A DNA stretch of 64,000 bases. Source: Microbulbifer harenosus. Its GTDB lineage: Bacteria; Pseudomonadota; Gammaproteobacteria; Pseudomonadales; Cellvibrionaceae. The stretch spans positions 124,001 through 188,000 of the forward strand of contig NZ_VANI01000006.1 of assembly GCF_005771435.1 (NCBI RefSeq), written 5' to 3'. Within the stretch, counting starts at the first letter, position 1. Every line of letters begins with the position of its first letter. The position numbers were made by a program, and so were the translations under genes. Shown here piece by piece: positions 6,835 to 24,447 of this stretch. The notes beneath the pieces were generated by a model. That model worked only from the letters and a program-made list of their open reading frames with translations. It ran no database searches and had not been told where the DNA came from.

Positions 6835-6999
6835 AATGGAACGTTTCTCACCCACACATTACCCTCAGATTACTATACTTCCTGAAACGGATTGATCTGC
6901 CAGGGAAGCGCGCCAGTCCTCCTATCTCGCACCGCCAAGCGTAGAAATCTATGCCCTCCCTGCCGTCACGCCGACAACCGACAGGAAGGTTTCTGCGCT

Positions 7000-9900: not shown

Positions 9901-11901
9901 TTGTGGGTGGAATCATTCTGGACGCTGGAGCAGCCGGTCTCTGACAACTTGCGCCTCGACATCCGCGCCGTACCGACCGAAGCAACGGATATGCCTCACT
10001 GGGGTAAATCCATGGATCACGATCCCTGTGACTGGCAGGTGCCAACCAGCCGCTGGCAGCTCGGTGTCATCTACCGGGATTACTACGGACTCAGACCACC
10101 GCAACCGGGGCAGCTGAAAAATATCAACCTGCGCCTTGAGATTGGTCTCTCCGGAAAAACGTTGACCATACCACCGCAGCCTTTGGATCTGGGAATCATC
10201 ACGGTGAAGATTCCCGAACTCGACGCGCGTGCAAACGCCCGCAACAGCCATTCAAACGGCGTGGTTGAGCGGAGCAAGCCGCCGGTTTATCGCAGCGACT
10301 TTCCTGCGGTGACCTTCCGCCAGTCACCGGGCAAGACGTGGGATGCGGAGCAGATTACCATGCTCACTGGCGGCACCTGGCTGGTCCCCCCGCCAGAGGA
10401 CTGGTTTGTGTGCAGCGTAGTATCCGGCCAGGGTTTCATCGCTCAGTCCCAGTCCCCGGTCATGTTCGTTGCGCATAAAAGCCATGACCGTGCGTACCAC
10501 GAGCGCAGTTCCATCACGAAATACAGCCGGTGGGACCTACATGACCGGCTACCGGAAATTGTCCGCACCGCCGGGCAATTACTTGGTGGGGTAATCGTAG
10601 CGCGGCCGGTAGAGGGATTGCCGCCGGACCTTCCGGTACTGCAGGTTGCAGATCCTATCCAGGCCATCATTGAGCTCGGGCTCGCGGCACGGCAACGTTA
10701 CAGTGGCGAAGTCGTTGCGATTACCGGTACCTCCGGCAAGTCATCCACACTGAAAATGCTCAGCTGCCTGCTGGGCGGTCGGGATAAAGTGCTCACCAGC
10801 CTCGGTAATTACAATTCCCGCGTGGGTGTACCCTCCATGCTCGCCAGTCTGAATCAACACCACGACGCCGCGGTGGTCGAAATAGCACAGAGCGCCCTGT
10901 GGATGAAGCAAGGGCCGATCACGCAACGGGTGCCCCCCACCATCGCATTGATTACCGAAATTGGCGTTTCCCAGACTACCAGCCGGGTTAAAACTGACCG
11001 CGATACCGCAAAATGGAAATCCCGTATTTTCGATGGACTGAGTGGGCGCGCAACCGCAGTGATAGGCGAGCATCTGCCACATTTCGATTACATTCTGGGA
11101 AAGGCGCGCCAACACGCCAAACGTGTAGTGACCTACGGCAATAGCGAACGCGCAGAGGTACAGATACGGGAGATTACAACAGATCAATACGGCAGCCGGT
11201 TAGCCCTGCATACGCCACGAGAAGACATAGAAATTTACGTGCCCGTTCCCAGTATGGGTATGGCCCGCAATGCCGTTGCCGCCCTGACGGTACTGTATGC
11301 CATGGGAAAACCGCTGGCGAACGCCGCCAGCGCTCTAGGGCAACTGACATTGGACGAAGGGCATCTCGACCAGATACCACTGAATTTGCCCCGAGGCAGC
11401 GCAATGCTCATAGACGACAGCTGGAACGCCACGGTGAGCTCCATGCTCAATGCCTTTTCGGTATTGGCGCAAACCCCGATGCCATCGGGAGGGCGCAAAG
11501 TTGCCGCGCTGGGACGCATTGTTGAGCTGGGTGACCAAGCAGCGGCACTGCACCGCAGCCTGGCCAGGCCATTAATTGAATGCGGTATCGAAAAACTTAT
11601 TACTCACGGGGAAGAAATGCACTTCCTCAGATCCATTCTCCCGGAAAAAATACTCGGTCCGCACTTCAACACCGCGAAGGACATGGCCTACTACCTGATC
11701 GGAGCCCTGCAGGATAAGGATCTGTTACTGGTCAAGGGGTCACGGCGGGATTCAGATTTTGGTGCAGTACCGAAGCTGCTGCAAGAGCTGGCGGCCACAA
11801 ATGCCCCAACAGAAGTAGCGACTCGTACAGAGTGCGGCACTGGCAGTGCACGCCGTCTTTCGGCCAACCGTCCAGCCGACAACTGTTGGTTCCCGTACTG
11901 A
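7000..11901 (+). CDS. Giant CapA-like/Mur-ligase fusion protein
   Basis: A predicted 1633-residue multidomain protein. Residues about 1-210 are unassigned. Residues 220-550 look like an all-helical (alpha/alpha) toroid of the glycosidase/epimerase sort. At 577-880 lies a CapA/PgsA-type metallophosphatase-like domain (GGDVN, NLEC, TANNHVGDYG, VAVHWG, HDAGD). A Pro-rich linker and a beta-rich segment follow. Residues about 1200-1610 are a MurF-like ligase with P-loop GTSGKSS and a DDSWNA motif equivalent to MurF's DDSYNA. CapA and Mur-type ligases occur together in poly-gamma-glutamate synthesis, and Mur ligase plus ATP-grasp in cyanophycin synthetase; the ATP-grasp partner is the convergent neighbour. 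The start at 7000 has AGGAAGG 10 nt upstream; an in-frame ATC-preceding start at 6892 lacks such support. No signal peptide seen. Confidence 0.85.
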   Translation: MATSGSFSELLSRARPVVERQLAKLTPPYTLFFSASDGKRRARVCHGRGQSTDALWLRLATQIRKLLASEKMDGRWLRIDWVTDSETTTWRALQQQFENTKRGYFRYGLALDANWKTAFLEQELNGNAMLYGGNKVAHVAINQSQFRAYTDFRFGRNTPLEFSDDRPVTILHTEGLFLDGKTEPRSLYGPGRNAGRRVVDTLDEPIAHHLITTSSRYLASQVRKNGRFDYGWHCCFDRPIDTYNTLRHASSTYALTEGWEVTGDEQTRCAIDRAIAYLTGHLIKTAQLPCGTEAAFLVEANGEIKLGGNAVCLLALVKYSELTGSSEHEELLEKLALGIRFMQDQGSGKFVHVLQYPELTLKEEFRIIYYDGEAAFGLMRLYGHTRDERWLNIVEKAFEYFIANNHWQAHDHWLSYCVNELTLYRPQARYYQFGLQNVIGHLDFILERITTFPTLLELMMAAERMVARLRKDEEFSYLLAQMDLHKFYRALHSRAMYLLNGYFWPEYAMYFANPAKITGSFFIRHHAFRVRIDDVEHYLSGFVAFRKYLLRGGCPIELSEQIPAIPQSEKHSHPTLAWGGDVNLARRQHYRAEELGHEEAFGRIPALSNADLSVINLECVVATTGEQGVEKGERSPYYYRARPDMLRLLCKAKIDVVTTANNHVGDYGNQALLEQGYWLDCIGIGHTGSGVNIDVALTPVIRPAGNLNVAIFSLDATQETFAAGSRKPGSAYLPLYAPESWMQYLQPRIAAARKAAHVVIVAVHWGNNLEETPSAEEIKVGHCIIDAGADAVLGASAHILQGIEVYKDRPIIHDAGDLLFDAVRKTLKDSGIFQLSLSHRGVEQVRFIPVGSGFGFSRQLSGEAATAAARRFIAKCEALGAKLQLHEDGSGLLQLAPPERAKPLPPPAPAARTRYNPKLLDSIQPPLHPYWHVREVPEDAKIAPRTLGPLRLLGIRVSPTHIEHRQPLWVESFWTLEQPVSDNLRLDIRAVPTEATDMPHWGKSMDHDPCDWQVPTSRWQLGVIYRDYYGLRPPQPGQLKNINLRLEIGLSGKTLTIPPQPLDLGIITVKIPELDARANARNSHSNGVVERSKPPVYRSDFPAVTFRQSPGKTWDAEQITMLTGGTWLVPPPEDWFVCSVVSGQGFIAQSQSPVMFVAHKSHDRAYHERSSITKYSRWDLHDRLPEIVRTAGQLLGGVIVARPVEGLPPDLPVLQVADPIQAIIELGLAARQRYSGEVVAITGTSGKSSTLKMLSCLLGGRDKVLTSLGNYNSRVGVPSMLASLNQHHDAAVVEIAQSALWMKQGPITQRVPPTIALITEIGVSQTTSRVKTDRDTAKWKSRIFDGLSGRATAVIGEHLPHFDYILGKARQHAKRVVTYGNSERAEVQIREITTDQYGSRLALHTPREDIEIYVPVPSMGMARNAVAALTVLYAMGKPLANAASALGQLTLDEGHLDQIPLNLPRGSAMLIDDSWNATVSSMLNAFSVLAQTPMPSGGRKVAALGRIVELGDQAAALHRSLARPLIECGIEKLITHGEEMHFLRSILPEKILGPHFNTAKDMAYYLIGALQDKDLLLVKGSRRDSDFGAVPKLLQELAATNAPTEVATRTECGTGSARRLSANRPADNCWFPY

Positions 11902-11920: not shown

Positions 11921-12086
11921 GCTAATGGTCCATGCGGAAAGTTCGGTAACTAAGGAGCAAAGCCAAAGCGCTCAGATCAAGGCGAGAAAGCGCAGGAATA
12001 GTGGAACTATTTCAAGCTTTCTCAACGCAGAGCTGGACGCTTTGGCGAAGTGAACCGTTACGCAACGTTCCGCATGGACCACTAGC
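11921..12086. repeat. MITE-like palindromic element between convergent genes
   Basis: Terminal inverted repeats of 19 bp, one mismatch apart: GCTAATGGTCCATGCGGAA at 11921-11939 and TTCCGCATGGACCACTAGC at 12068-12086. Inside, further arms pair imperfectly (AGCCAAAGCG with CGCTTTGGCG; GCGAGAAAGCG with TTTCTCAACGC), so the whole 166 bp folds as one long hairpin. The right repeat overlaps the end of the ATP-grasp gene and supplies its TAG stop. No target-site duplication was evident. It may act as a bidirectional terminator. Confidence 0.7.
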
Positions 12087-14070
12087 CCAGCACCGAAAAG
12101 CTGCAACGGGAGAAACACGGCGCGGATTCAACCTCTGTGTGCGTTACGGCCGCCGATAAAGGGCCAACTTTGCACTGCTCTACCATTTGCGCCACGGCCC
12201 GCTCGGTACCTTCCAACACTGCCTCTACTCGCCCATCCTCCAAATTTCTGACCCAGCCGGAGACTGCATGGCGTACTGCCATCAATTTAAGCCAGCGCCT
12301 GAACCCGACGTGCTGCACCTTCCCGCATACCAGCACGCGGCAGGCGACACGTGTTGCAGAGTCTGGGAGTTCGGGAAACAGCTCTCGCAGCAGTACAGCG
12401 GCGACGTCTCTTGGTAGACCTTCGTCGGGAAAATGATGTCGCCCAAGATGAGGATTACACACGGCGTTCACCACTTGCCATCGCTGTGAACAGGCATCGC
12501 GGCTGATATCCTCCATAAGAAGGTCGATGCCAGCAATAAACGGATCGAAGATAACCTGAAGAGTTCGCTCAAGCACCGACAACACACTAGGGTGAATCAG
12601 CTCGCTGACATCCATCCGCGAGACTTGAGTTTGCATCCCCTGGGGAGCTGTCTGCGAATATAACGCCGCCACCACCTTGTTGCCGATGACAAGTACCCGG
12701 TAGTGATTTAGTCGTCGCCCAGACTCATCCCCGGCACCCTCGCCCATTCCGGCCTGCTGATGGGGCTCACTGCACGGAAGCACCTCTGCCATCCAGTCGT
12801 TGTTCCTGGTGATTTTGCGGGACACCAGTCGCACGCACTCAGGTATTGCACCATGGAACAGGCAGCTGAATTTTCCGTGGCGCAATCTCAACACCGTATC
12901 CGAAAGCGTTTCTATTTCGAGATTGTGCGCAAATGCCGCCTGTTTGATCAGATCAGCCTGTCGTCGTTCGCCCTGATAAAATGCACGCGGGAATTGACTG
13001 AAACGATATACAGGAGCCAGCGCCACCTGCAACCTGCGCGGGCTCGCCGCAGTCGTAGTGGAAAGTACATGGCGGAGCAATTTTCCCGGTACGTCGACCG
13101 CACGCCCATACGAGGGAAAAACCGCATCACAGATTCCCGGATTGGAGTTGACCTCAATGACATAGACCGGCGAGTGAGCGGCGCTCGGCACCACGCCGCA
13201 ATACATAAGATCCACGCCCACTTGCACAAGGCCGGGGAAACACAGCGCAGCGCGTTCAGCTATCCTTCGGCTCTCCGCATCCAACAGGCCCAAAACCTCT
13301 ACGGTTTCCCCTCCCGCCGAAGTGTTCGCCACCGAGGCCAGTTGAACTCTTTCTCCAGTACTGGGAATCGTGTCTAACGAGATGTTCCTGCGCTCTAGCA
13401 GATCAACGTTTCGAAGGGGGTCATACCGCAGACTCGGATTGTTCCTGCGAATCCGGTTCTTGCGCTCCATTAAGTCGCGAATGGAATGGATGCCATCACC
13501 AACCACGTGTGCTGGCGTGCGCACATAGGCGGCCTCTGCCTTTCCTCCGATAACGATGACACGTATATCCTGACCTGTAAGATTCTGCTCAACGATAACC
13601 CGTGCACTGTGGTGCCGGGCCAGTTTCCAGGCGCGGTTGAACTCGTCTTCCCCGCCGATCCCGCAGGAGACACCAGCACCGGATGATCCGTCACTGGGTT
13701 TTACAGCAACTTCCCCACCGAACTCAAGAAAATACCGCAGCGCCGACGGATAATCCTCGAACACATCTCCTGCTGGCACGGGGACGCCTGCATCCGCCAT
13801 TAGTTTCTTGGCTATATGTTTTTGACGCGCGCAGTATGCATAAACTGCAGAGTTTTCGGGGGAATTCTGTCGAAAAACGATACTTCTCTGTCCATCTCGC
13901 ACCTCAAAAATCAATTTTCGATGGCGCTGGACTTCCAGATTCATTGCATTGGCCGCATGACACAGCAGCGAAATGCCAATGTCGTCACGCACGTGGAGGA
14001 AGGGTGAGTTTGAGTAGTCGTTCTCTACTGACTCCCGGACAATACTTTCTACGGGGAAAATTTCAGACAT
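12082..14070 (-). CDS. ATP-grasp ligase fused to acylphosphatase (cyanophycin-synthetase-like)
   Basis: A 662-residue protein. Residues 25-335 form an ATP-grasp domain resembling that of cyanophycin synthetase: KPSDGSSGAGV at 124-134, the GDGIHSIRDL segment at 191-200, and metal ligands D287, E306, N308 (VIEVNSN). Residues 360-570 repeat the pattern of the first domain in degenerate form; the IEVNSN equivalent reads VNAVCN, so a metal ligand is lost. Residues 575-662 are an acylphosphatase domain with GKVQHVGFRRW and VRN, i.e. catalytic Arg and Asn kept. It would activate a carboxylate as acyl-phosphate and form an amide. It lies 142 bp after the HlyD-like gene on the same strand and faces the CapA/Mur fusion. 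Substrate unknown. Confidence 0.85.
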   Translation of the reverse strand: MSEIFPVESIVRESVENDYSNSPFLHVRDDIGISLLCHAANAMNLEVQRHRKLIFEVRDGQRSIVFRQNSPENSAVYAYCARQKHIAKKLMADAGVPVPAGDVFEDYPSALRYFLEFGGEVAVKPSDGSSGAGVSCGIGGEDEFNRAWKLARHHSARVIVEQNLTGQDIRVIVIGGKAEAAYVRTPAHVVGDGIHSIRDLMERKNRIRRNNPSLRYDPLRNVDLLERRNISLDTIPSTGERVQLASVANTSAGGETVEVLGLLDAESRRIAERAALCFPGLVQVGVDLMYCGVVPSAAHSPVYVIEVNSNPGICDAVFPSYGRAVDVPGKLLRHVLSTTTAASPRRLQVALAPVYRFSQFPRAFYQGERRQADLIKQAAFAHNLEIETLSDTVLRLRHGKFSCLFHGAIPECVRLVSRKITRNNDWMAEVLPCSEPHQQAGMGEGAGDESGRRLNHYRVLVIGNKVVAALYSQTAPQGMQTQVSRMDVSELIHPSVLSVLERTLQVIFDPFIAGIDLLMEDISRDACSQRWQVVNAVCNPHLGRHHFPDEGLPRDVAAVLLRELFPELPDSATRVACRVLVCGKVQHVGFRRWLKLMAVRHAVSGWVRNLEDGRVEAVLEGTERAVAQMVEQCKVGPLSAAVTHTEVESAPCFSRCSFSVLG

Positions 14071-14212: not shown

Positions 14213-15493
14213 TCAGCGTTCGCGAAGCGCCTCTCCCGCCTGGTTAAATGGTTTTACCAGATAGTCATATATGGTTTTTGATCCGGTTTTAACATCCACG
14301 GTCGCCACCATACCCGGCACAATCGGAAACTCCTTTCCATCCCGATTAATCAACGCATCGGCATCCGTTAGAATCAATACGTGATAAAAATATTCACCGG
14401 GTTTGGTTTCATCCTGAATGGTATCGGGAGATATCATGGTAACTTTCCCATCCAGCCCGCCATATACGCTGTAGTCATATGCAGTTATCTTGACCTTGGC
14501 ATCCTGTCCTGGGTGAATGAACGCGATATCCCTGGGTGATATTTTTGCCTCAATCAACAGGCGGTCATCTAGCGGAACAATTTCCATCAAGCGGCCATTT
14601 GGAGGAATTACACCGCCAATAGTGGTCACTTCAATATCCTTAACGATACCTCGCACCGGCGATTTTAGTGTCAACCTGGTGAGGGAATCCGCGCGCCCCT
14701 CGATGATAGAGGACAAGGCCTCAACCTCCGCGCTGACGTTCGCCAACTCTTCCCGTGCGCGCACCATATATTCCGACTGAACATCCTTGATTTTCAGGTC
14801 CAGTTCGGATTTCTGCCGACTTAGCCTTAGCACTTCGACATTGCTCGCCGCGCCGGACTTAACCAGATCCCGGGTTATTGAAAGCTCACTCTGGATCAGG
14901 TCGCGGGCCTCTTTAAGACTGAACAGGGAATCCTGAAGACTTTTTTGCCGCGTTTGATATAGTCTCTTTTCTTTAAGAATCAAATCCTGATAATTTGATA
15001 ACGCCTCAGGGAACTTGAGCTCCGTACCATTCACCTCCGCACTAAGTCTGGCGGCATTGGCTAGCGCGGCCCGATAGCGGGCTTCACTTTCTTCGACATT
15101 GGAGCGGATTTTTGTCGGGTCCAGTTGCGCGAGTACTTCACCCTGCTCAACAATATCGCCTTCGGCAACATTGAGCCGTGCGAGAATCCCTCCTTCAAGC
15201 GACTGGATCACCTGCGCTCTGGAGGTCGGAATTACTTTGCCCGCTCCCTTGGAGACTTCATCCACTTTGGCGAAGTAAGACCAGGTAATGAAGCTGGCAA
15301 GCAACAGGAAAAACACCCAAATGACGCGGCGGGACTGAGAGAGTCGCGCTTCGTCTGAGCCCTCGCAGTAATGCGCACCAGCATTGTGAAAATCCGCCTC
15401 GAGAATCGCGATGTTCGCAGCCTCCTGAGGTGCTGTATTAGCACGGCTGATCGCGGATTCCGGGCTTTGTGAAACTGGGGGCACGCTGGTCAT
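14213..15493 (-). CDS. HlyD-family type I secretion membrane fusion protein
   Basis: A 426-residue periplasmic adaptor linking the inner-membrane ABC transporter to TolC. One transmembrane helix lies at about residues 52-72 (VFFLLLASFITWSYFA), followed by a lipoyl/barrel-sandwich half (VIQSLEGGILARLNVAEGDIV), a long coiled coil (residues about 130-270), and the returning barrel with GMVATVDVKTGSKTIYDYLVKP near the end, typical of LapC/HlyD proteins. Its start overlaps the stop of the ABC transporter gene by 4 bp, so the two are translationally coupled. Confidence 0.95.
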   Translation of the reverse strand: MTSVPPVSQSPESAISRANTAPQEAANIAILEADFHNAGAHYCEGSDEARLSQSRRVIWVFFLLLASFITWSYFAKVDEVSKGAGKVIPTSRAQVIQSLEGGILARLNVAEGDIVEQGEVLAQLDPTKIRSNVEESEARYRAALANAARLSAEVNGTELKFPEALSNYQDLILKEKRLYQTRQKSLQDSLFSLKEARDLIQSELSITRDLVKSGAASNVEVLRLSRQKSELDLKIKDVQSEYMVRAREELANVSAEVEALSSIIEGRADSLTRLTLKSPVRGIVKDIEVTTIGGVIPPNGRLMEIVPLDDRLLIEAKISPRDIAFIHPGQDAKVKITAYDYSVYGGLDGKVTMISPDTIQDETKPGEYFYHVLILTDADALINRDGKEFPIVPGMVATVDVKTGSKTIYDYLVKPFNQAGEALRER

Positions 15494-17676
15494 CCGTTCA
15501 CCTTTTCACGTCCCTGTTGGGCATTGGTATCCGAGGATTTGGACTCGGATGTGGCAACCTGAGCCAGTTTCTGTAAAGCGACCGCCTTGGGTGCATCAAG
15601 CACCACCTGCCCATTGTCCACTACCAGTATCCTGTCTACGAGTTGCAACGTACTGCTTCGGTGAGTGGCAAGGACAAGTGTCCGCCCCTCTACCCAGCGC
15701 TTCAGCTTTGTGATGAATCGTTTTTCCGTGACATCATCCAGAGAGGCCGTCGGTTCATCCAGCAGTACCACATTCGGGTTTCGGATAAATAGCCGGGCAA
15801 GTAGCAGTGATTGACGCTGGCCGCCGGAAAGCCCAAGACCACCTTCAAGTACAACGTGATCCATGCCTTTGGGAAGCTTGCGTACAAATTCCAGAGCGCC
15901 CGACAAGTCCAATGCCGCAATAATTTCCCGGTCGGATGCACCGGGTGCTCCGAGAGTGATATTTTCACGCAGTGTTCCGTGAAACAGGTTGGCATTCTGG
16001 GTCAACAAACCGATATCCCGACGCGTATCCGCCGGATCGATATGCCCAAAGCTGACCCCCTCCAGAGTAATTTCTCCGGCACTCGGCTCCAGCAGTCCAG
16101 AGAGGGCCTGCAACAACGTGGATTTGCCCGCTCCGTTGCGTCCTAATATGCCGATGCGTTCACCGGCCCGGATCTGCAGCGACGCCACGCTCAATGCCGG
16201 GATACTGGCATCGTCGCCGTATTTGAACGCGGCCTGGCGCAACTGGTAATTCCCCGCAACGTAGGAGAGATGCACCTTTTTACTCCCCTCCGGGTGGTCC
16301 ACTGGCAACTGCATTATCTGATCCAGACCTTTCAATGCATACTTTGCCTGCTGCCAACGACTCAGCACCTGGGTGATCTGCGCCATCGGCGCCATCATGC
16401 GTGATCCCAGAATCGAGGCAGCTACCAGCGAACCGGCCGTCATATCCCCCGACATCACCATGGGGGCGCCAAAGAGCACAATAACGGCAAATACAGACGA
16501 CTGGATATTGTGGGTCCAGGTAACCAGTTTACCAATCAGCCCTCTCAGCCGGAGATTCGACTCGGCGGTGACCGCGTTGTAGTGGTTCCATTGCTGTTGG
16601 AATCGCTGTTCCGCCTGCAGCCCCTTGATATCTTCCATTCCCTGCACAGTTTCCACCAGCATGGCATTGCGCAACGAGGATTCCCGAATGGATTCTCCGG
16701 CCAGCTGGGCAAGTTTTCCCTGCGCCAGTAGGCCGGGCACAATCAACATCACCAGTGCCACTAGGGGAATCAGCGCGAGAGGGCCGGCCACATACCACAT
16801 GAACACAAGAAAGAGGAAAAAGAACGGCATATCCGCCATGGCGAGAATGGTGGTTGACGTTACCATCTCCCGAACCTTCTCCAGCTCCCGAATCTGGGAA
16901 ATAAACGCACCGGTCGACTTGGGCCTGGCGCTGCTGCGCAACCGCACAGCGTGACCGTAAACGAGATCGGACACTCGAATATCCGCCCGCTTACCCAACA
17001 GATCGGTAACCTTAATGCGGTTTACCCGCATCAGAAAATCAAAGAACACGGCGATCATGACACCGCTGAAGAGTACATAGAGCGTGGGTATAGATTCCGC
17101 GGGTATGACCCGATCATACACCTGCTTGGAAAAGAGGATTCCGGACAGCGCCAGAATATTAGCCACCGTAGTGGCAATCATTACATGAGTGTAGGGCTTA
17201 AGGTCCCGCAGGATGATCGACCTGAACCAGTGTTTTTGTTGGGGCTTGATGTAGTCATCCACCCGAACATCGGCCACGTTGTGGGAAGGACGCAGAACCA
17301 CTACGGCACTGATTTGGGAAGCGATGGCGTCAGCTTTAATCGCCGATGCCGCCCCCTTATCACCGCTGAACACGACCGACAGACTTCCGTTCGCATCGAT
17401 GGTTTCAATGACACCTATCTGACCACTACGCAGCTGAACAACCAGCGGAAGGCGCCACGGGCTCAACATGCTGGAATCAAACTCGGTAAACCTGGCAACC
17501 AGCCCAGCCTGCCGCGCCATACTTCGCACTACGTTTTCAACAGGATCCTCCTTCCCCCAGTGGGACGCAATCCGTATATTTTCTTCTGAAAATTCAAGCC
17601 GATAGTGCCTGGCAACACAAAGTACGGCATCCACCCATTGAACATAATCCGCAATTACTTTCTGGGGACTTTCCAT
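15490..17676 (-). CDS. Type I secretion ABC transporter (LapB/HlyB-like permease-ATPase)
   Basis: A 728-residue inner-membrane exporter. An N-terminal C39-like domain (about 1-150) lacks the expected cysteine protease motif, as in non-processing HlyB/LapB transporters that handle RTX or Bap-type adhesins. Membrane segments cover about 165-450. The nucleotide-binding domain has Walker A GRNGAGKST, signature LSGGQRQS, Walker B VVLLDEP and H-loop ATHR. It sits between the tolC-like gene (32 bp upstream) and the HlyD-like gene (4-bp overlap). The nearby BapA-prefix proteins with no double-glycine leader are the obvious cargo. Confidence 0.95.
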   Translation of the reverse strand: MESPQKVIADYVQWVDAVLCVARHYRLEFSEENIRIASHWGKEDPVENVVRSMARQAGLVARFTEFDSSMLSPWRLPLVVQLRSGQIGVIETIDANGSLSVVFSGDKGAASAIKADAIASQISAVVVLRPSHNVADVRVDDYIKPQQKHWFRSIILRDLKPYTHVMIATTVANILALSGILFSKQVYDRVIPAESIPTLYVLFSGVMIAVFFDFLMRVNRIKVTDLLGKRADIRVSDLVYGHAVRLRSSARPKSTGAFISQIRELEKVREMVTSTTILAMADMPFFFLFLVFMWYVAGPLALIPLVALVMLIVPGLLAQGKLAQLAGESIRESSLRNAMLVETVQGMEDIKGLQAEQRFQQQWNHYNAVTAESNLRLRGLIGKLVTWTHNIQSSVFAVIVLFGAPMVMSGDMTAGSLVAASILGSRMMAPMAQITQVLSRWQQAKYALKGLDQIMQLPVDHPEGSKKVHLSYVAGNYQLRQAAFKYGDDASIPALSVASLQIRAGERIGILGRNGAGKSTLLQALSGLLEPSAGEITLEGVSFGHIDPADTRRDIGLLTQNANLFHGTLRENITLGAPGASDREIIAALDLSGALEFVRKLPKGMDHVVLEGGLGLSGGQRQSLLLARLFIRNPNVVLLDEPTASLDDVTEKRFITKLKRWVEGRTLVLATHRSSTLQLVDRILVVDNGQVVLDAPKAVALQKLAQVATSESKSSDTNAQQGREKVNG

Positions 17677-17708: not shown

Positions 17709-19202
17709 TCAGGGTAATACCTCAACACCTTGGATAGGGCGCCCCTGAAGATCAAATGCATTTCGGATTTCGCCGACGGTATAGAGGCAATCCACCTGTA
17801 ACTTATTCAAGTCGTATTCGGTGTTATTTTTTTCTATACGCGCCTGGTACAGCTCCTGTTCCGAATTGAGCAGTTCAACCAGTGTTCTGGTTCCCAGCGC
17901 TGAGTATTGCTGCTGGTAAAGATCCCGAGTCTCCGCAATCGCGCGAAGGCGTGCATCAAGTATTGAGACACTTCTCGACAGTCCGTCGCTCTGACTTTGC
18001 GATATGCGCAGATCGCGAACCACACCGAGCCGCGCGTTGTCCTTGGCCGCTTCCGCAGCACGCAATGCAAAGCCCGCTGCATCCCGATTCGCAAAAATAC
18101 GGCCACCCTGATAGATCGGCATGGAGAGGTTTAGAAATACGGCGCTTTCGTGGTCGTTCAGAGCATTGGTATCCACGTATTCCTGATCCAGATAGCTGTT
18201 GACACTGCCATCAAGAGAGAGTGTGGGCCAGGATTGAGCTTTGGCTTCCCGTAGCTGTGCCATCGCTTCCGCGCGCTGGGCTTCGGCAAGCAGTACAGCT
18301 GGAGCGTAGCTGGCCTGCATAGGATCAATCTGGCACCCGTGCACAACGGATTCAGGAATTCCCGCGGTGAGCACTACCGGCTGTTCCGTCCCCATCAGGT
18401 TTTGCAAAACACTGCGCCAGCGCGCCAATTGTGCCTCAAGCTGCTGCCGCGTGGCCTTTGCGGATTCAATGCGGGATTGCGCCTGAAGCACATCGGAACG
18501 CGAACTCGCACCACGCTGACTCCTCAGATTCACCAGCCGGGAAATCGCCGACACTCCCTGAACCTGCTCCTCGGCGGACTTCACCAGCGCTTGATAGCGC
18601 TGTACTTCGATCGCCGCTTGGGCGGTATCCCGCGCTACCTGATCGATTTGTTGGAGTACCCGCGCCTGAGAAGCCTGGGCGCCGGCAGTCGCAGCGTCCA
18701 CGCTGCTGGAAATTTTTCCGAAGTCGTATAGGACTTGTGACAGGTACAACTGCACAGCATGACCATCGCCGTTGCCGTCATTCTCGCTGTCATAGCCTCC
18801 AACAATCCCGACATTCAGCTGGGGATAATAGCCAGCCTTTGCGGCTCGGATATTCTGTTGCTGGCGATGTAACTCGCCAACGGATTCACCAATCGCGGGA
18901 TGCCACTCAACGGCACTCAGGACGGCTTCGCGCATACCGACCTGCCTGGCACTGGAACCTCCGGCCTGCGACGGGTTAAGAGGGCGCGCACTATAGAGCG
19001 GACTTTCGGCAACTTCTCCATGTAACCGGGCTGGGCTGATCACCTGAAATTCCAGCTCGGAATCCGCCGCATATACAGTCCCGGCAGCAACGAGAAATGT
19101 CGCGAAAATCACTGTAAGTGGAATTTTCTTCTTCAGAAAGACCTTGTGGAGTTCACTGCGCGCAGTTTTTCCTGGCCTTGGCTTCGCGTATTCCTGGGTC
19201 AC
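17709..19202 (-). CDS. TolC-family outer membrane efflux/secretion protein
   Basis: A 497-residue outer-membrane channel component of the type I system. A hydrophobic signal segment lies at about 26-45 (IPLTVIFATFLVAAGTVYAA), followed by paired OEP repeats with long helices and the conserved SRSDVLQAQSRIESA and TLVELLNSEQELYQAR segments. The first codon in frame is GTG at 19202 with no clear Shine-Dalgarno, so the start is uncertain and could be a little downstream. It lies after the two Asp-Ala protein genes, separated by a terminator, and begins the transporter cluster tolC-ABC-HlyD. Confidence 0.93.
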   Translation of the reverse strand: MTQEYAKPRPGKTARSELHKVFLKKKIPLTVIFATFLVAAGTVYAADSELEFQVISPARLHGEVAESPLYSARPLNPSQAGGSSARQVGMREAVLSAVEWHPAIGESVGELHRQQQNIRAAKAGYYPQLNVGIVGGYDSENDGNGDGHAVQLYLSQVLYDFGKISSSVDAATAGAQASQARVLQQIDQVARDTAQAAIEVQRYQALVKSAEEQVQGVSAISRLVNLRSQRGASSRSDVLQAQSRIESAKATRQQLEAQLARWRSVLQNLMGTEQPVVLTAGIPESVVHGCQIDPMQASYAPAVLLAEAQRAEAMAQLREAKAQSWPTLSLDGSVNSYLDQEYVDTNALNDHESAVFLNLSMPIYQGGRIFANRDAAGFALRAAEAAKDNARLGVVRDLRISQSQSDGLSRSVSILDARLRAIAETRDLYQQQYSALGTRTLVELLNSEQELYQARIEKNNTEYDLNKLQVDCLYTVGEIRNAFDLQGRPIQGVEVLP

Positions 19203-19290: not shown

Positions 19291-19324
19291 CAATATAAAG
19301 ACGCCGGACCTGGGTCCGGCGTCT
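19291..19324 (-). terminator. Rho-independent terminator after the small Asp-Ala protein gene
   Basis: AGACGCCGGACC (19299-19310) pairs perfectly with GGTCCGGCGTCT (19313-19324). Read on the minus strand it is followed by a T-rich stretch (TTTATATT). It separates the secreted-protein gene from the tolC-like gene. Confidence 0.85.
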
Positions 19325-19363: not shown

Positions 19364-20656
19364 TTAAAGCTCGTAGACTCCATTCTGTGACCAGAGACCG
19401 GCCATCGGATCATACGTATCCGGCGGCAGTATCTCGGCATCATTGGCCGCAGCGGGCTGAATGTCACTGACATTTGCAAGCAGATTGCCCAGTTCTTCCG
19501 CCGAAAGGAAGTCACTATGGAAAAAATCAATCAACAAATCTTGCAGTTGGACATACGACCCACCGCCCTCCTGGTTTGTTGAGCCGGAACAGCCACAGTC
19601 CGCACCATCACCAATAAGCAATCCTTCCAGCTGTATTGCTTCTTCAAGTGCATTTTCGAGCCTGGCCTCAACCGTATCGCGGAAGGCGGGCGATATCTCT
19701 TGCCCGCTCACCGGTACCAGCGACTCTATCGGTGTGTACTGGCTCATATCGCAACTAAGGGTGATATCGGCATCAATGTCGATATCGATATAGCAGCCAC
19801 CGTCGCCGTTTACAGCGGTCAACGGAAGGTTGCTATCAATATCCATTGCAATATCAACGTAGACGTCAATCCCGTGCAAAGTTACCTGATGGGTGTAGAC
19901 CCAGTCCCCATTAGAGACCGACACAGGATCATTTTGGGGATCGCATTCAAGACTGATATCTACATCAATATCCACGTTGATATCGCATAGATCATGACAA
20001 TGATCGTCACAGTCATCGCCATCGTCGGTGTTGTCATCCTCGCCGGTATCAGTGTCTGGATCGGCGTCGGCATCGGCGTCGGCATCGGCGTCGGCGTCGG
20101 CGTCGGCGTCGGCATCTGAGTCTGCATCCGCATCGGTGTCGTCCTCCGAATCCGGGGGAATCGGCGAAGGCATGCTCGGGGAGGGTGATAGCGCAGGCGG
20201 CGGGGAAACGGCGAAGCCCGCGCTGGAAGAATTGTTACCATCAGACGATGCCACGCCAGCAATACCCAATGCCGATAGCCCCGCCCACAACCCCGAAGAT
20301 ACATTTAGCAAACTACCGGCTGTATTCCCGGATAAAGCGGAGCTGCCCTCTACCGAGGCAAACGATAATGCTGTTCCATCCGCTGAATACTGCGCAATCT
20401 GCACTTCACCCGTGTTGGGATTCTCCAGAAAAAGTTCGGTCGGTGTTTCCACCGTATCGGGACCGAAGAAATTCGCGATCATGATGACTTCTGCAGAAGC
20501 CAATTGAATGATCAGGTCGCTGCCTGATCGGCTCCACGAAATAATGTCGCTCTGCGACAACGGTAATTTGACAAACCCTGAAGAATTTAAAGCCACTCTA
20601 GTGGAATCAAATGATGTCAAGGTGCCGTCCAGTTTATCGACTACCTGCGTTAGCAT
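19364..20656 (-). CDS. Secreted BapA-prefix protein with short Asp-Ala tract
   Basis: A 430-residue, very acidic protein, paralog of its upstream neighbour. Residues 1-105 match the BapA/LapA-type N-terminal prefix (LSQSDIISWSRSGSDLIIQL, LFLENPNTGEVQIAQ). A hydrophobic helix at 123-137 and a Pro/Ser linker at 151-170 precede 13 Asp-X dipeptides (residues 175-199). Then come a Cys/His cluster (CDDHCHDLCD), three segments alternating Asp with Ile/Val (residues 226-238, 262-274, 288-302), and a conserved C-terminal region ending in WSQNGVYEL that probably carries the type I secretion signal. There are no RTX GGxGxD repeats. Function unknown; surface retention or adhesion is likely. Confidence 0.85.
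   Translation of the reverse strand: MLTQVVDKLDGTLTSFDSTRVALNSSGFVKLPLSQSDIISWSRSGSDLIIQLASAEVIMIANFFGPDTVETPTELFLENPNTGEVQIAQYSADGTALSFASVEGSSALSGNTAGSLLNVSSGLWAGLSALGIAGVASSDGNNSSSAGFAVSPPPALSPSPSMPSPIPPDSEDDTDADADSDADADADADADADADADADPDTDTGEDDNTDDGDDCDDHCHDLCDINVDIDVDISLECDPQNDPVSVSNGDWVYTHQVTLHGIDVYVDIAMDIDSNLPLTAVNGDGGCYIDIDIDADITLSCDMSQYTPIESLVPVSGQEISPAFRDTVEARLENALEEAIQLEGLLIGDGADCGCSGSTNQEGGGSYVQLQDLLIDFFHSDFLSAEELGNLLANVSDIQPAAANDAEILPPDTYDPMAGLWSQNGVYEL
20060..20134 (-). repeat. Short (Asp-Ala)n-coding tract
   Basis: Hexanucleotide GAY-GCN tract coding for 13 Asp-X dipeptides inside the 430-residue protein. Nearly all X are Ala. It is the short counterpart of the much longer tract in the paralog. 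Confidence 0.9.
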
Positions 20657-20693
20657 CCTGCCTACCCTTACTTTTTCATCATCCTATGATGAA
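20657..20693 (-). promoter_or_regulatory. Leader hairpin and CsrA/RsmA-like GGA sites of the small Asp-Ala gene
   Basis: On the sense (minus) strand TTCATCA and TGATGAA (20675-20693) enclose the loop TAGGA. A second GGA overlaps the start codon (CAGGATG). The paralog has the same layout with different stem bases, which supports a real RNA or DNA palindrome. A GGA in a loop plus one at the start is typical of CsrA/RsmA-controlled messages; the match to the full CsrA consensus is partial. Confidence 0.5.
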
Positions 20694-20785
20694 GCCCAGA
20701 TCCAATTGATGAAGGTTTTCTCTGACATCGAAAACCTAAAGAACAGTTTTTGGACAACATGCCCTCTTTTTGATCAAGAACATAT

Positions 20786-20819
20786 GGTATGGCTGAGTTA
20801 TTCGTTGATTTCAAGCAGA
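20786..20819 (-). promoter_or_regulatory. Conserved 34-bp upstream block, copy 1
   Basis: This block is nearly identical (2-3 differences) to 23011-23044, upstream of the paralog. On the minus strand it contains TTGAAA and, 19 bp on, TACCAT, a possible sigma-70 promoter with long spacing. Conservation in otherwise diverged upstream DNA implies shared control. Confidence 0.5.
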
Positions 20820-20842
20820 TGGCATCAGTACTGGAATTCCTG

Positions 20843-20880
20843 GGCGCAAAAAAAAGACACCGGGTTTTTAGCCCGGTGTC
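20843..20880 (-). terminator. Rho-independent terminator after the large Asp-Ala protein gene
   Basis: GACACCGGG (20856-20864) pairs with CCCGGTGTC (20872-20880). On the minus strand it is followed by eight Ts. It lies 42 bp after the stop of the 651-residue protein, so that gene is probably transcribed alone. Confidence 0.93.
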
Positions 20881-20921
20881 TGAGTCGCCCATATCAACTG
20901 GGGCGTATGAAAGCGAGTATG

Positions 20922-22877
20922 TTACAGCTCGTGGTACCCGTTCTGCGTCCACAGATCCGCTGTCGGGTCGCTCATGTCTGGCGTCATGATCTCTGCAGTA
21001 AGTCCAGGCTCGGACTGGGCTGAGCTCGCGTCACCCAACAGACTGCCCAGAGCTTCCGTCGAAAGAAGATCACTTTGGACAAAGTCTTCCAGCAGATCTT
21101 CGAGACTGACGTACGCTCCAGTGTCGCTCTGATGTGTTGAATCGGAACTACCAGGATCGTCACTGTATTCAGCCAGTTCTATGGCTTTCTCAAGCGCTTC
21201 TTCGAGCGTGGCGTCAAGTGCTCCCTGGCCACCAAACTCTGACTGAGATGCCATCAGTGCGACTCCGTTATCCGGTCCATAGAGTGGCACCGCCATGAAA
21301 TCACCACTGGGTTCCTCACCATCGGGCGACATCGCTACCCCATAGTCCGGTGGGCAGTGTCCGAAGTCGCAATCTATGCCGATGTCGATATCTACATAGA
21401 TGTCGATATAGCAGCCCTTATCACAGCCGTCGGTAGGTGGACCAAACCCTTTGTCGATATCCACCGCGATTTCAACATCGACATCAATCCCATGCAGGCT
21501 TATTTGATGGCTGTAGACCCAATCGCTGTCGGAATCTGCATCCGCGTCCGCGTCTGAATCTGCGTCGGCATCGCACTCAATGTCGATATCAACATCCACA
21601 TTGATGTCGCAGTGGCAGTGCTCGTCGCAATCGGCGTCGGCGTCTGCATCGGCATCGGCGTCGGCGTCGGCATCCGCATCCGCATCGGCGTCGGCATCGG
21701 CATCGGCATCGGCATCGGCATCCGCATCGGCATCGGCATCCGCATCGGCGTCGGCATCCGCATCGGCATCGGCATCGGCATCCGCATCGGCGTCGGCATC
21801 CGCGTCAGCGTCAGCGTCGGCGTCGGCGTCAGCATCGGCGTCGGCATCCGCGTCGGCATCGGCATCCGCATCGGCATCCGCATCGGCATCCGCGTCGGCA
21901 TCGGCATCCGCATCGGCATCCGCGTCGGCATCCGCATCCGCGTCGGCATCGGCATCCGCATCGGCATCGGCATCGGCATCCGCGTCGGCATCCGCATCGG
22001 CGTCAGCATCCGCGTCGGCATCGGCATCCGCGTCGGCATCCGCATCGGCGTCAGCATCCGCATCGGCATCGGCGTCGGCATCCGCGTCGGCATCCGCATC
22101 GGCGTCGGCATCCGCGTCGGCATCGGCATCCGCATCGGCATCCGCGTCGGCATCCGCGTCGGCATCCGCATCGGCGTCAGCATCCGCGTCGGCATCGGCA
22201 TCCGCGTCGGCATCGGCATCCGCATCGGCGTCAGCATCGGCGTCAGCATCGGCGTCAGCATCGGCGTCAGCATCGGCGTCCGCATCGGCATCCGCATCGG
22301 TATCAGCATCCGCATCGGCATCCGCGTCTGTATCTGCGTCCGCATCCGCATCAGAGTCCGCGTCAGCATCCCCGTCCGGGGGCGGTGGCGCGGGGGGCGG
22401 GGGTGGCGGCGGGGGTGGTGGGACGTATGGCGAGAAGCTAGGTCCGGAGGAGTCATCATCGTCGGCATTAGCAATCGCGATGATGCCCAACGCGGCTAAA
22501 CCCGCCCATACCCACGGGCAAACAATTTCCCCCGTAGGAGGAATGATGCCAGCGAAGCCCGTACTGCTGCTCGCCTGAGCCATCGAAAGTATTGAACCAT
22601 CGGCTCCTTGCTGAGCAAGCAATATCTCGCCAGATTCAGGATCCTCCAAGAAGAGATCACTAGCGATATCGCCCGAATCCGCGAGATAAAAATTCTCGAT
22701 GGTAATTATTTCCCCGGACGCCAGCTGTATGATCAGATCATCGCCGGATCTGGAAAACGAAATAATGTCATCCTGCGACAGTGCCAACTTGACGTACCCC
22801 GGAGCGTTCAAAACCACGTTGGCGGAATCAAACGAACTCAGGGTGCCGCTGGATTTATCAACTACATGTGTTTGCAT
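20922..22877 (-). CDS. Secreted BapA-prefix protein with 124-unit Asp-Ala repeat
   Basis: A 651-residue, extremely acidic protein. Residues 1-105 are a BapA/LapA-type prefix domain ([20 protein letters not shown]); a hydrophobic helix ([16 protein letters not shown]) lies at 123-138 and a poly-Pro linker at 152-167. Residues 170-416 have Asp at every even position, with Ala between them apart from a few Ser and Thr. A Cys/His cluster CDEHCHCD (417-424) and three Asp/hydrophobic alternating strands follow (e.g. [12 protein letters not shown]). The C-terminal 60 residues ([15 protein letters not shown] ... WTQNGYHEL) match the paralog. No RTX repeats and no signal peptide, consistent with export by the adjacent type I system. 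Metal binding or a matrix role is inferred. Confidence 0.88.
21630..22370 (-). repeat. 741-bp hexanucleotide minisatellite coding (Asp-Ala)n
   Basis: Uninterrupted GAY-GCN hexamers, 247 codons. Third positions vary, yet longer blocks of 18-40 bp recur, e.g. the plus-strand pattern GGCATCCGCGTCGGCATCCG. That points to growth by tandem duplication of multi-hexamer units under selection for the Asp-X pattern. The tract also keeps several other reading frames open; those are shadows. Confidence 0.95.
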
Positions 22878-23184: not shown

Positions 23185-24447
23185 TCACAGTGCTGCGGAA
23201 CGCTCCGTAGACACTGGCGACGGATCAGATGCTGGTGAAGTATCTGTGATCCGACCGCTTCGGAAATACAGAAACAAAACCAGCCCGCACAGAAGAAAGG
23301 TTCCCCAGTAGAGAGACGAACCACTCCACTTCTCGATTACAAAACCCCCAACCAACGGCGCACTTGACCAGCCAAGTGTGTAAAAAGACGTCGCGCCAAA
23401 ATAGCTACCCCTGAGATGATCGGGAGCCATCCGGTCTACCTGGATACTCATTGTCGGGAACAAAATTGTTTCGGCTACGCTCACAACGAAGGTCGCACCC
23501 AACCAGCCATAGAACCAGTGGACCGGATTGATCGCAAACCACACCTGCCCTGCCGCGAGAACAAAAATTCCCATCACAATCCGGCGGTTGATACTCAATG
23601 CACGCATCAATTTCAGCAATGGAAACTGCAGCAGAATAATCGTCGATGCATTCACCAGAATCATGCTGGAGATCAGCTGTATCAAGTCGGGAGCACTACT
23701 TTGTGTAAGGTACTGCACCAGGCTGGAATCCATATGCGCGTAGATAAACAGCGTAAGAATGTTGGCAAACACCACGATCAAAAAAGCTTTGTCACGCCGC
23801 AGTACCGTCAAGGTCGCTCGGAAGCTCGTCGGCGGATGCCGCTTCAGTCTCGCTGCCACTCCCGATGTTGTATACCGGAACGCCCATACAAAGCCGAGAC
23901 AGAGAAAAAGGTAGCTGAGCGCGGTAAGCCCGAACGTGGACTGCTGCGCACTGATCCCGACCCAAACGCCCACGACCGGTCCCAGTGCAGCCCCCACATT
24001 GATCAGAAAATAGCGAAACTGCAGTGCAAGCTCACGAACCTGCTTTTGCTTGATCAGATCACCAAACAATGCGCTTGCTGGTGGTTCCCAGATGGCGCGA
24101 CCAATGGAACAAAGCGTAATGGACACGACAAAGGCAGACAGTGACTCCGCCACGGCGAGTAGCGCAAACGCACAGGTGTTGATCAATGTACCCAGGATTA
24201 ATATGGTGCGCCTGCCATATCTGTCAGACAGGGTACCCATATAGAACCCGAGCAGAGTCGCCGCCATCGCCGATACACTGAGAATAAGTCCGATATATGC
24301 CGGTCCCAGTGAAAATTTCTCATGCAGCAGAATCGCGAGAAATGGCCACACCATAAAATAAGTGCCGCGCCCGAAAAAACTTCCGATCAGAATTATCCAT
24401 ATCAACGGCGGTAAGCCATAGAGTGATTGCCACCACTGCCTGTCCAT
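23185..24447 (-). CDS. MFS transporter
   Basis: A 420-residue inner-membrane protein with about 12 transmembrane helices. The MFS loop motif GTLSDRYGRRTILILG lies between helices 2 and 3, and RAIWEPPASALFGDL resembles the helix 4-5 region of MdtH/YceL-like drug exporters. It lies upstream of and on the same strand as the Asp-Ala genes but with 307 bp between, so co-transcription is doubtful. Substrate unknown; efflux of a small molecule is the usual role of such proteins. Confidence 0.9.
   Translation of the reverse strand: MDRQWWQSLYGLPPLIWIILIGSFFGRGTYFMVWPFLAILLHEKFSLGPAYIGLILSVSAMAATLLGFYMGTLSDRYGRRTILILGTLINTCAFALLAVAESLSAFVVSITLCSIGRAIWEPPASALFGDLIKQKQVRELALQFRYFLINVGAALGPVVGVWVGISAQQSTFGLTALSYLFLCLGFVWAFRYTTSGVAARLKRHPPTSFRATLTVLRRDKAFLIVVFANILTLFIYAHMDSSLVQYLTQSSAPDLIQLISSMILVNASTIILLQFPLLKLMRALSINRRIVMGIFVLAAGQVWFAINPVHWFYGWLGATFVVSVAETILFPTMSIQVDRMAPDHLRGSYFGATSFYTLGWSSAPLVGGFVIEKWSGSSLYWGTFLLCGLVLFLYFRSGRITDTSPASDPSPVSTERSAAL

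Follow-up and report, generated by a model that had tools for sequence, protein, structure and literature searches.

What does a protein do in which Asp occupies every second residue over a long central stretch, and do the genes around it belong to the same system? These questions are raised by a window of 64,000 nucleotides from Microbulbifer harenosus (contig NZ_VANI01000006.1, positions 124,001 to 188,000), in which two adjacent paralogous genes encode the proteins here called A and B. Both open reading frames (ORFs) combine a BapA prefix, a hydrophobic helix, a proline-rich linker, a tract of Asp-X dipeptide units and strands with alternating Asp, as an earlier note on this DNA had described. 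A and B are probably type I-secreted surface adhesins of the kind represented by Paracoccus denitrificans BapA, and by analogy the tract would act as a calcium-responsive polyanionic stalk. The architecture, its conservation across the genus and the adjoining type I secretion system (T1SS) genes are apparent from the sequence. The source genome is 4.67 Mb in size and carries three BapA_N genes. The features of the two proteins are as follows.

20922..22877, minus strand: protein A, 651 amino acids (aa), with BapA prefix, helix, Pro linker, 124-unit Asp-X tract, Asp-alternating strand domain and C-terminal region
22602..22868, minus strand: BapA_N domain (PF22783) of A, residues 4-92, 68.0 bits against a cut-off of 27
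22470..22520, minus strand: residues 120-136 of A, a hydrophobic segment conserved across the genus and judged by eye to be a helix
22377..22430, minus strand: Pro-rich linker of A, residues 150-167, read from the sequence
21633..22376, minus strand: Asp-X tract of A, 124 units, residues 168-415, read from the sequence
20925..21632, minus strand: C-terminal part of A, with Cys-bracketed strands (Asp at every second residue), probable helices and a terminal W-x-Q-x-G motif
20855..20881, minus strand: intrinsic-terminator-like hairpin 3' of A, strong, by consensus match only
19364..20656, minus strand: protein B, 430 aa, short-tract paralog of A with the same architecture
20045..20140, minus strand: Asp-X tract of B, 16 units, residues 173-204, read from the sequence
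19367..20044, minus strand: C-terminal part of B, in which Cys residues bracket the Asp-alternating strands; one relative (P0001), 52% identical
19299..19324, minus strand: intrinsic-terminator-like hairpin 3' of B, before the T1SS genes, strong, by consensus match only

The BapA_N domain of B scores 59.8 bits against the same cut-off, and the BapA prefix model NF033677 is above its cut-off in A and B alike. Asp is partnered by 120 Ala, two Thr, one Ser and one Gly in the tract of A, and by 11 Ala, three Thr, one Ser and one Pro in that of B; the earlier count of 124 units holds for A, and that of 13 for B becomes 16 by the Asp-X definition. The net acidity of A (D+E-K-R) is 198. RTX and immunoglobulin-like (Ig-like) repeats had been described as absent from both proteins, and neither was found in a Pfam scan of A and B up to E=1; the RTX nonapeptide pattern GG.G.D. 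occurs in none of 31 genus proteins or pieces, A and B included. Asp-alternating strands, recognised by pattern, are present in 21 of these 31. A motif W-x-[QENH]-x-[GT] lies within the last 14 residues of 30 of 31 proteins, those of the window and the Ig-type paralogs alike, and is proposed to be part of the export signal. A homolog search with the C-terminal part of A returned no matches, probably because it was swamped by Asp-Ala words, and a search with the corresponding part of B returned P0001 as its single match. Antisense to the tract of A runs an open Ala-Ser frame of 332 aa (21580-22578 of the window, plus strand), which could be mis-annotated as a gene.

A route of export is suggested by the genes downstream of A and B, which follow in the order TolC, ABC transporter, HlyD and an ATP-grasp gene designated F11, with a further gene, F8, convergent to these.

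17709..19202, minus strand: TolC-type outer membrane protein of the T1SS (TIGR01844)
15490..17676, minus strand: T1SS ATP-binding cassette (ABC) transporter of the LssB type (TIGR03375)
14213..15493, minus strand: T1SS HlyD-type adaptor (TIGR01843)

With PF22783 above its cut-off and these three genes downstream, the earlier proposal that A and B are T1SS substrates with a BapA-type prefix is likely to be right. The arrangement recurs in the genus, where 28 of 48 genomes have BapA_N matches over the cut-off (35 matches in all). In 24 of these 28 genomes a single ~20-kb region holds the tract gene together with genes for the ABC transporter and HlyD, a count that includes two (G081 and G102) whose region holds only the C-terminal piece of the tract gene owing to cuts at contig ends. 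In the other four (G082, G083, G104 and G106) a contig end interrupts the tract gene, and the ABC and HlyD genes are on another contig.

Within the genus, prefix and tract are closely coupled. An Asp-X tract of at least 13 units follows the prefix in 33 of the 35 BapA_N genes, in some cases reaching the contig end; of the remaining two, one (G082) has a poly-Asp run and in the other (G081) the contig stops in the Pro linker. The C-terminal part of A was found in 20 of 144 family genomes, all of them Microbulbifer. Contig ends fall in or just before the tract in six genus drafts (L066, L068, L069, L070, L072 and L073), so that drafts undercount tract proteins, and gene catalogues probably miss or truncate them. 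By comparison, an ORF with an Asp-X tract of at least eight units was found in none of 20 control regions of ~20 kb from five genomes.

Outside the genus the prefix is found with other bodies. The earlier note had asked whether the middle is always Asp-rich, and had named homologues with another body and no tract as the case that would speak against its view. Such homologues exist: among 390 genomes of the order, 19 are over the BapA_N cut-off, seven of them Microbulbifer, and in all eight readable non-genus genomes the stretch after the prefix lacks an Asp-X tract (of the 12 non-genus genomes, one is cut by a contig end and three are weak matches, L110-L112). In a phylum sample of 398 genomes, 28 are over the cut-off, and of the 26 newly found non-genus loci listed above it, one has a tract (G664, Asp-Ser, 952 units). 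In both samples ~1.5 kb beyond the prefix match was read, among the matches listed, so that later tracts would be missed. A plasmid search with the prefix of A gave 34 records, all below 60% identity.

The suggestion that Asp-Ala replaces the adhesin body fits the short paralogs and fails for others. A third paralog in the source genome (contig 2, L009:8261-12049, 1262 aa) has the prefix, 208 Asp-X units and then a BapA/Bap/LapF-type C-terminal region, which matches NF045619 with 379.6 bits against a cut-off of 180. Prefix and NF045619 models are likewise both matched by paralogs at L062 and L065, and tracts are combined with further domains at L062, L065 and L074. T1SS genes were not seen in the fetched regions around the Ig-type paralogs of the source genome (L009) and of genome G085 (L065).

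Is such a protein new? The earlier note knew of no described family of this kind, a claim overtaken by the publication in 2017 of P. denitrificans BapA, a protein of 2211 residues with 891 Asp-Ala repeats, encoded beside the T1SS genes bapBCD (PMC5588039). BapA is reported from envelope fractions, deletion of bapA or bapBCD severely impairs biofilm formation, and 10 mM Ca2+ stimulates biofilm formation and attachment (PMC5588039). A report from 2025 adds that bapA mutants cannot attach, treats BapA as a surface anchor and has polysaccharide and BapA act jointly in adhesion (PMC13235738). Compared with A and B by its published description only, BapA shares the Asp-Ala tract, a very acidic composition and a gene directly beside T1SS genes, the tract making up most of the protein. 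Unlike the proteins of the genus it has one long tract, and the portions of the description available make no mention of Asp-alternating strands, Ig-type paralogs or ligase neighbours (PMC5588039). It was the one Asp-Ala adhesin found in the open-licence PubMed Central (PMC) literature. Since this kind of adhesin is already known, the finding here is a genus lineage with variants. What looks new is the neighbourhood, formed by F11, which resembles CphA, and the fusion of a domain F8N with CapA and MurF-type parts in F8; in the same literature, no system of this sort was found, either for a T1SS or adhesin of Microbulbifer or for Mur ligase, ATP-grasp, CapA or cyanophycin synthetase in connection with an adhesin or T1SS.

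Other known proteins share single traits with A and B. The large adhesins of the BapA/Bap/LapF type have the PF22783 prefix and adjoining T1SS genes; unlike A and B they carry the NF045619 region and Ig-like matches, and the Asp-X tract lies outside these models. RTX proteins differ by their GGxGxDxxx nonapeptides, not found in A or B. The staphylococcal Sdr/Clf proteins share a long stalk of Asp dipeptides, for which dedicated modifying enzymes are known; they are Gram-positive wall proteins, and Ala, the usual partner in A and B, cannot be O-glycosylated. Matches to the SdrC, SdrD, ClfA and ClfB models cover the repeat only, with at most 144.7 bits against cut-offs of at least 999. Aspein and other Asp-rich shell proteins contain Asp-Ala stretches (PMC5588039); they are animal proteins, not known to be exported by a T1SS, and are likened by composition.

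Does the tract itself matter, or is it filler? It might be a neutral or near-neutral spacer grown by hexanucleotide slippage, with functional flanking domains and unrelated neighbours. The unit is indeed a hexamer, tract length ranges from 16 to about 550 units among relatives in the genus, and B manages with just 16. Codon usage points the other way: in the longest tracts of 25 genus proteins (4564 units), 3770 synonymous departures from the modal codon stand against 132 non-synonymous ones, a count that overstates constancy at the Asp position and speaks mainly for X, because an Asp in each second position was what defined a tract. The count does not include the proteins of L047, L049, L054, L057 and L058, the second L048 gene or contig-end pieces. 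The tract also occurs in variants, namely Asp-Ser (G068 and G097), Asp-Ala followed by Asp-Ala-Asp-Gly (G088, G109 and G110) and poly-Asp running to the contig end (G082). Judging by the Ser, Gly and poly-Asp versions, what is kept seems to be the density of Asp rather than Ala, which argues against a neutral spacer, as do the tract of P. denitrificans (PMC5588039) and the tracts found near F8N in four other genomes, described below. We regard such a spacer as unlikely. A multi-tract form also exists (L074:1373-11188 in genome G073, 3271 aa), in which tracts of 458, 164, 161 and 144 units alternate with similar domains of ~270 aa. This range, from Asp-Ala to Asp-Ser, Asp-Ala-Asp-Gly and poly-Asp, in short, long and multi-tract forms, some having a Bap-type body and others lacking one, means that comparison within the genus could show what the tract does.

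As a calcium-responsive adhesin stalk, the tract could work in the following way. In the low-calcium cytosol the chain would be unfolded and soluble because of its charge. Before export, in a step of which we are less certain and which is doubtful, F11 and F8 might attach something to the Asp carboxylates. The protein would then leave through the adjacent T1SS, guided by its C-terminus with the W-x-Q-x-G motif, and the prefix and hydrophobic helix would hold it at the cell. Sea water is rich in calcium. Outside the cell, the Asp tract and Asp-faced strands would take up Ca2+ and condense, linking cells, surfaces or matrix to one another, as has been considered for P. denitrificans BapA (PMC5588039). 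For the calcium link that the earlier note had raised, the calcium-responsive adhesion of that bacterium is the best analogy (PMC5588039). Two observations count against this picture: neither A nor B matches the Bap/LapF C-terminal model NF045619 up to E=1, so that secretion by this T1SS is deduced from the neighbourhood, and an AlphaFold2 model of the C-terminal part of A is unreliable, with a predicted local distance difference test score (pLDDT) of 35, strands being noted at the Asp-alternating segments.

The same regular carboxylates, and the Asp-alternating strands counted above, could instead form a surface that nucleates minerals or metals, as has been suggested of molluscan aspein, and so seed calcium carbonate within the biofilm. 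Kumar and Spiro, who also liken P. denitrificans BapA to SdrC, raised the comparison with aspein themselves (PMC5588039). The idea rests on composition, and no identified neighbour suggests carbonate chemistry; we think it very unlikely.

What, then, are the enzymes beside an adhesin for? The earlier note was silent on the genes resembling cyanophycin synthetase and Mur ligases, which are:

12082..14070, minus strand: F11, 662 aa, ATP-grasp and acylphosphatase, a predicted carboxylate ligase
6892..11901, plus strand: F8, 1669 aa, an undescribed N-terminal domain with CapA and a MurF-type Mur ligase, a predicted modifier
7000..8691, plus strand: F8N, ~560 aa, the N-terminal domain of F8, with no Pfam match; elsewhere fused to a glycosyltransferase, ATP-grasp or Mur ligase
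8722..9462, plus strand: CapA/PGA_cap domain (PF09587) of F8
10720..11745, plus strand: Mur ligase middle and C-terminal domains of F8

F11 contains an ATP-grasp domain with its ATP-site residues. Among the best 7995 candidates scored, 33 relatives, itself included, match it over 91-100% of its length, all from Microbulbifer where the organism is given, and the next-nearest are mostly cyanophycin synthetases. Five of six checked ATP-site or acyl-phosphate residues named for TeCphA1 are kept in all 33. A Mur-type domain in the same chain was not found, and the TIGR02068 cut-off is not reached. In CphA1, the ATP-grasp domain elongates the backbone and a Mur-type domain adds Arg (PMC9427784), giving poly-Asp with Arg on each Asp side chain (PMC9262961).

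Both enzyme types of CphA1 are at this locus in separate genes. We tentatively suggest that F8N reads an acidic dipeptide tract, which is then decorated, ahead of export, by the module fused to F8N or encoded next to it: a MurF-type ligase, an ATP-grasp enzyme of the CphA-like or YheCD type, or a glycosyltransferase. If so, the Microbulbifer tract would amount to a brush that resembles cyanophycin and is encoded for the ribosome, its Asp carboxylates carrying amino acids or peptides, and the linked ligases would bear on side-chain modification of acidic low-complexity tracts in bacterial adhesins. The polymodified acidic tails of tubulin are a suggested counterpart for such a decorated tract. 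The idea can be taken further, in a form compatible with an adhesin: the tract would be a ribosomally made cyanophycin-like polymer, loaded on its Asp carboxylates by the ligases in the cytosol and exported as a matrix polymer or store. The addition of Arg to poly-Asp side chains by a Mur-type domain (PMC9262961, PMC9427784) favours it, as do the Mur ligase, CapA, ATP-grasp and glycosyltransferase partners to which F8N is fused. Staphylococcal Ser-Asp tracts are glycosylated by dedicated enzymes, SdgA and SdgB (PMC3794999), and P. denitrificans BapA migrates at >300 kDa against a predicted 212, its authors not excluding modification while offering odd composition as the reason (PMC5588039). 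Modification is a prediction, however, and F8 also occurs without tract proteins. In addition, F11 has Ser130 where TeCphA1 has His267, and Cys314 in place of Arg458, one of three Asp-recognition residues named for TeCphA1. The usual substrates of MurF-type ligases are peptidoglycan precursors, and CapA points towards a capsule polymer. We consider a cyanophycin-like product doubtful. The confidence attached to the several readings is not meant to sum to one.

How far these genes follow the tract within the genus bears on that suggestion. F8N is present in 36 of the 48 genomes, in all 28 that are BapA_N-positive versus 8 of the 20 others (Fisher p ~2e-6, kinship ignored); masking hides the tract gene in two of the eight, leaving six F8-only cases. 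F11 was found at E<1e-100 in 18 of the 48, all within the 28. Shorter F11 relatives (333-336 aa, 33-34% identical) occur in G074 and G094, where no judgement on the tract gene is possible. A Pfam scan of the whole or part of F8 in 14 of the 28 BapA_N-positive genomes revealed a Mur ligase in 12; in the other 14, F8 is known by length only.

Several of these observations weigh against tailoring of the tract, beginning with the replaced Arg458. F11 is missing, at the threshold given, from 10 of the 28 BapA_N-positive genomes. In the six F8-only genomes, F8 keeps the same neighbours and syntenic place without a BapA_N gene over the cut-off, so that the tie between F8 and tract in the main locus is partly plain synteny. 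Two of the six (G072 and G108) carry CapA and the Mur middle domain; in the other four the frame is 577-603 aa long, which corresponds to F8N by itself. F8 lacks the Mur ligase in G068, which has an Asp-Ser tract, and in G069, where it is also far from the tract gene; in the poly-Asp genome G082 its frame has just 601 aa, and in G070 and G073 the Mur part is a separate adjacent frame.

Alternatively, the product of F8 and F11 could be a capsule or surface polymer of its own, the two genes having nothing but the locus in common with the adhesin. The PGA_cap domain of F8 and the six F8-only genomes suit this explanation, as does the cooperation of polysaccharide and BapA in P. denitrificans adhesion (PMC13235738). 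It accords less well with the full-size F11, found in the genus only in genomes with BapA_N genes, or with the F8 copies that adjoin the Ig-type paralogs L009 (source contig 2; F8N with Mur ligase, convergent) and L065 (G085 contig 26) and the T1SS or autotransporter genes of other taxa. The copies beside Ig-type paralogs speak against pure synteny. On balance, we give a separate polymer somewhat less than an even chance.

Does F8N accompany Asp-X tracts outside the genus as well? This undescribed domain is present in several groups of the phylum: it was found in 14 of 398 phylum genomes, 12 of them outside the genus, and in 6 of 369 class genomes, four of which are new, distant and without a tract nearby, one lying on a 3.8-kb contig. 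An Asp-X tract ORF lies near F8N in 4 of these 16 non-genus genomes versus none of the 20 control regions (Fisher one-sided p 0.031), a comparison that ignores kinship and in which several stretches from some genomes favour finding a tract. For the phylum sample alone the figure is 4 of 12 (Fisher one-sided p 0.014), and by stretch, 5 of 23 F8N stretches (four genes) show a tract. The fetched stretches of the other 12 of the 16 genomes contain no tract, a further point against tailoring; the four positive cases are among the evidence for a cyanophycin-like polymer.

These four differ in their make-up. In G664, an Asp-Ser tract gene, TolC, ABC, HlyD and F8 are consecutive, F8N being fused to a family-1 glycosyltransferase. 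G214 has T1SS genes, a tract of about 210 Asp-Ala units in a protein whose N-terminus looks LapA-like by eye, and a fusion of F8N to Mur ligase. The same fusion is found in G861 with a partly masked Asp-Ser tract, and two other F8 copies there are without a nearby tract. In G796 the tract, of 89 Asp-X units (Asp-Gly in the part displayed), is in an autotransporter (L173:5787-8957) whose gene immediately precedes an F8N gene of 579 aa; judging from this predicted protein, a tract does not depend on type I secretion. T1SS, RTX or large-adhesin genes lie beside F8 in five of the 16 (G213, G795, G609, G601 and G639), some recognised by eye or weak similarity, and neither a tract nor a T1SS, RTX or adhesin gene was seen in the fetched stretches of seven (G547, G678, G652, G955, G992, G1003 and G1073). 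F8N is fused to a YheCD-type ATP-grasp in G213 and G547.

Three leads on F8 were considered and set aside. A profile search against PDB sequences for the fold of F8N gave one weak match (E=0.015), which we do not believe, and a toroid fold is no more than a guess. The fused enzyme might track the partner residue, with glycosyltransferase for Ser and ligase for Ala; G664 fits this rule, but G097 and G861 pair Asp-Ser with a Mur ligase. That F8 is exclusive to the tract system is ruled out by the six genus genomes without a BapA_N gene over the cut-off.

Further genes accompany the locus. In many genus loci a transglutaminase-like protein flanks F11 downstream of HlyD, and in fewer a 2-oxoglutarate (2OG)-Fe(II) oxygenase (TIGR02466); the copies scanned were L045:16012-16965 and L045:19034-19810 only, and neither gene was seen beside the window operon. 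Upstream of A lies a gene that has the same position relative to the tract gene in other loci of the genus:

23185..24447, minus strand: major facilitator superfamily (MFS) transporter, with no known role in the system

In four taxa, F8 is adjoined by a probably secreted protein with a metallopeptidase-like motif, AHELFHLYQ, noted by eye; a Pfam scan of three of these proteins gave no match.

L150:7220-8179, L162:6991-7977, L167:8308-9255 and L172:6588-7661: ~320-aa protein neighbouring F8

Finally, outside the genus, an 886-aa protein with ATP-grasp matches (L163:9184-11844) has a CapA-Mur F8 gene and a fragment of HlyD in its vicinity, and by its predicted domains is another pairing of a ligase with F8.

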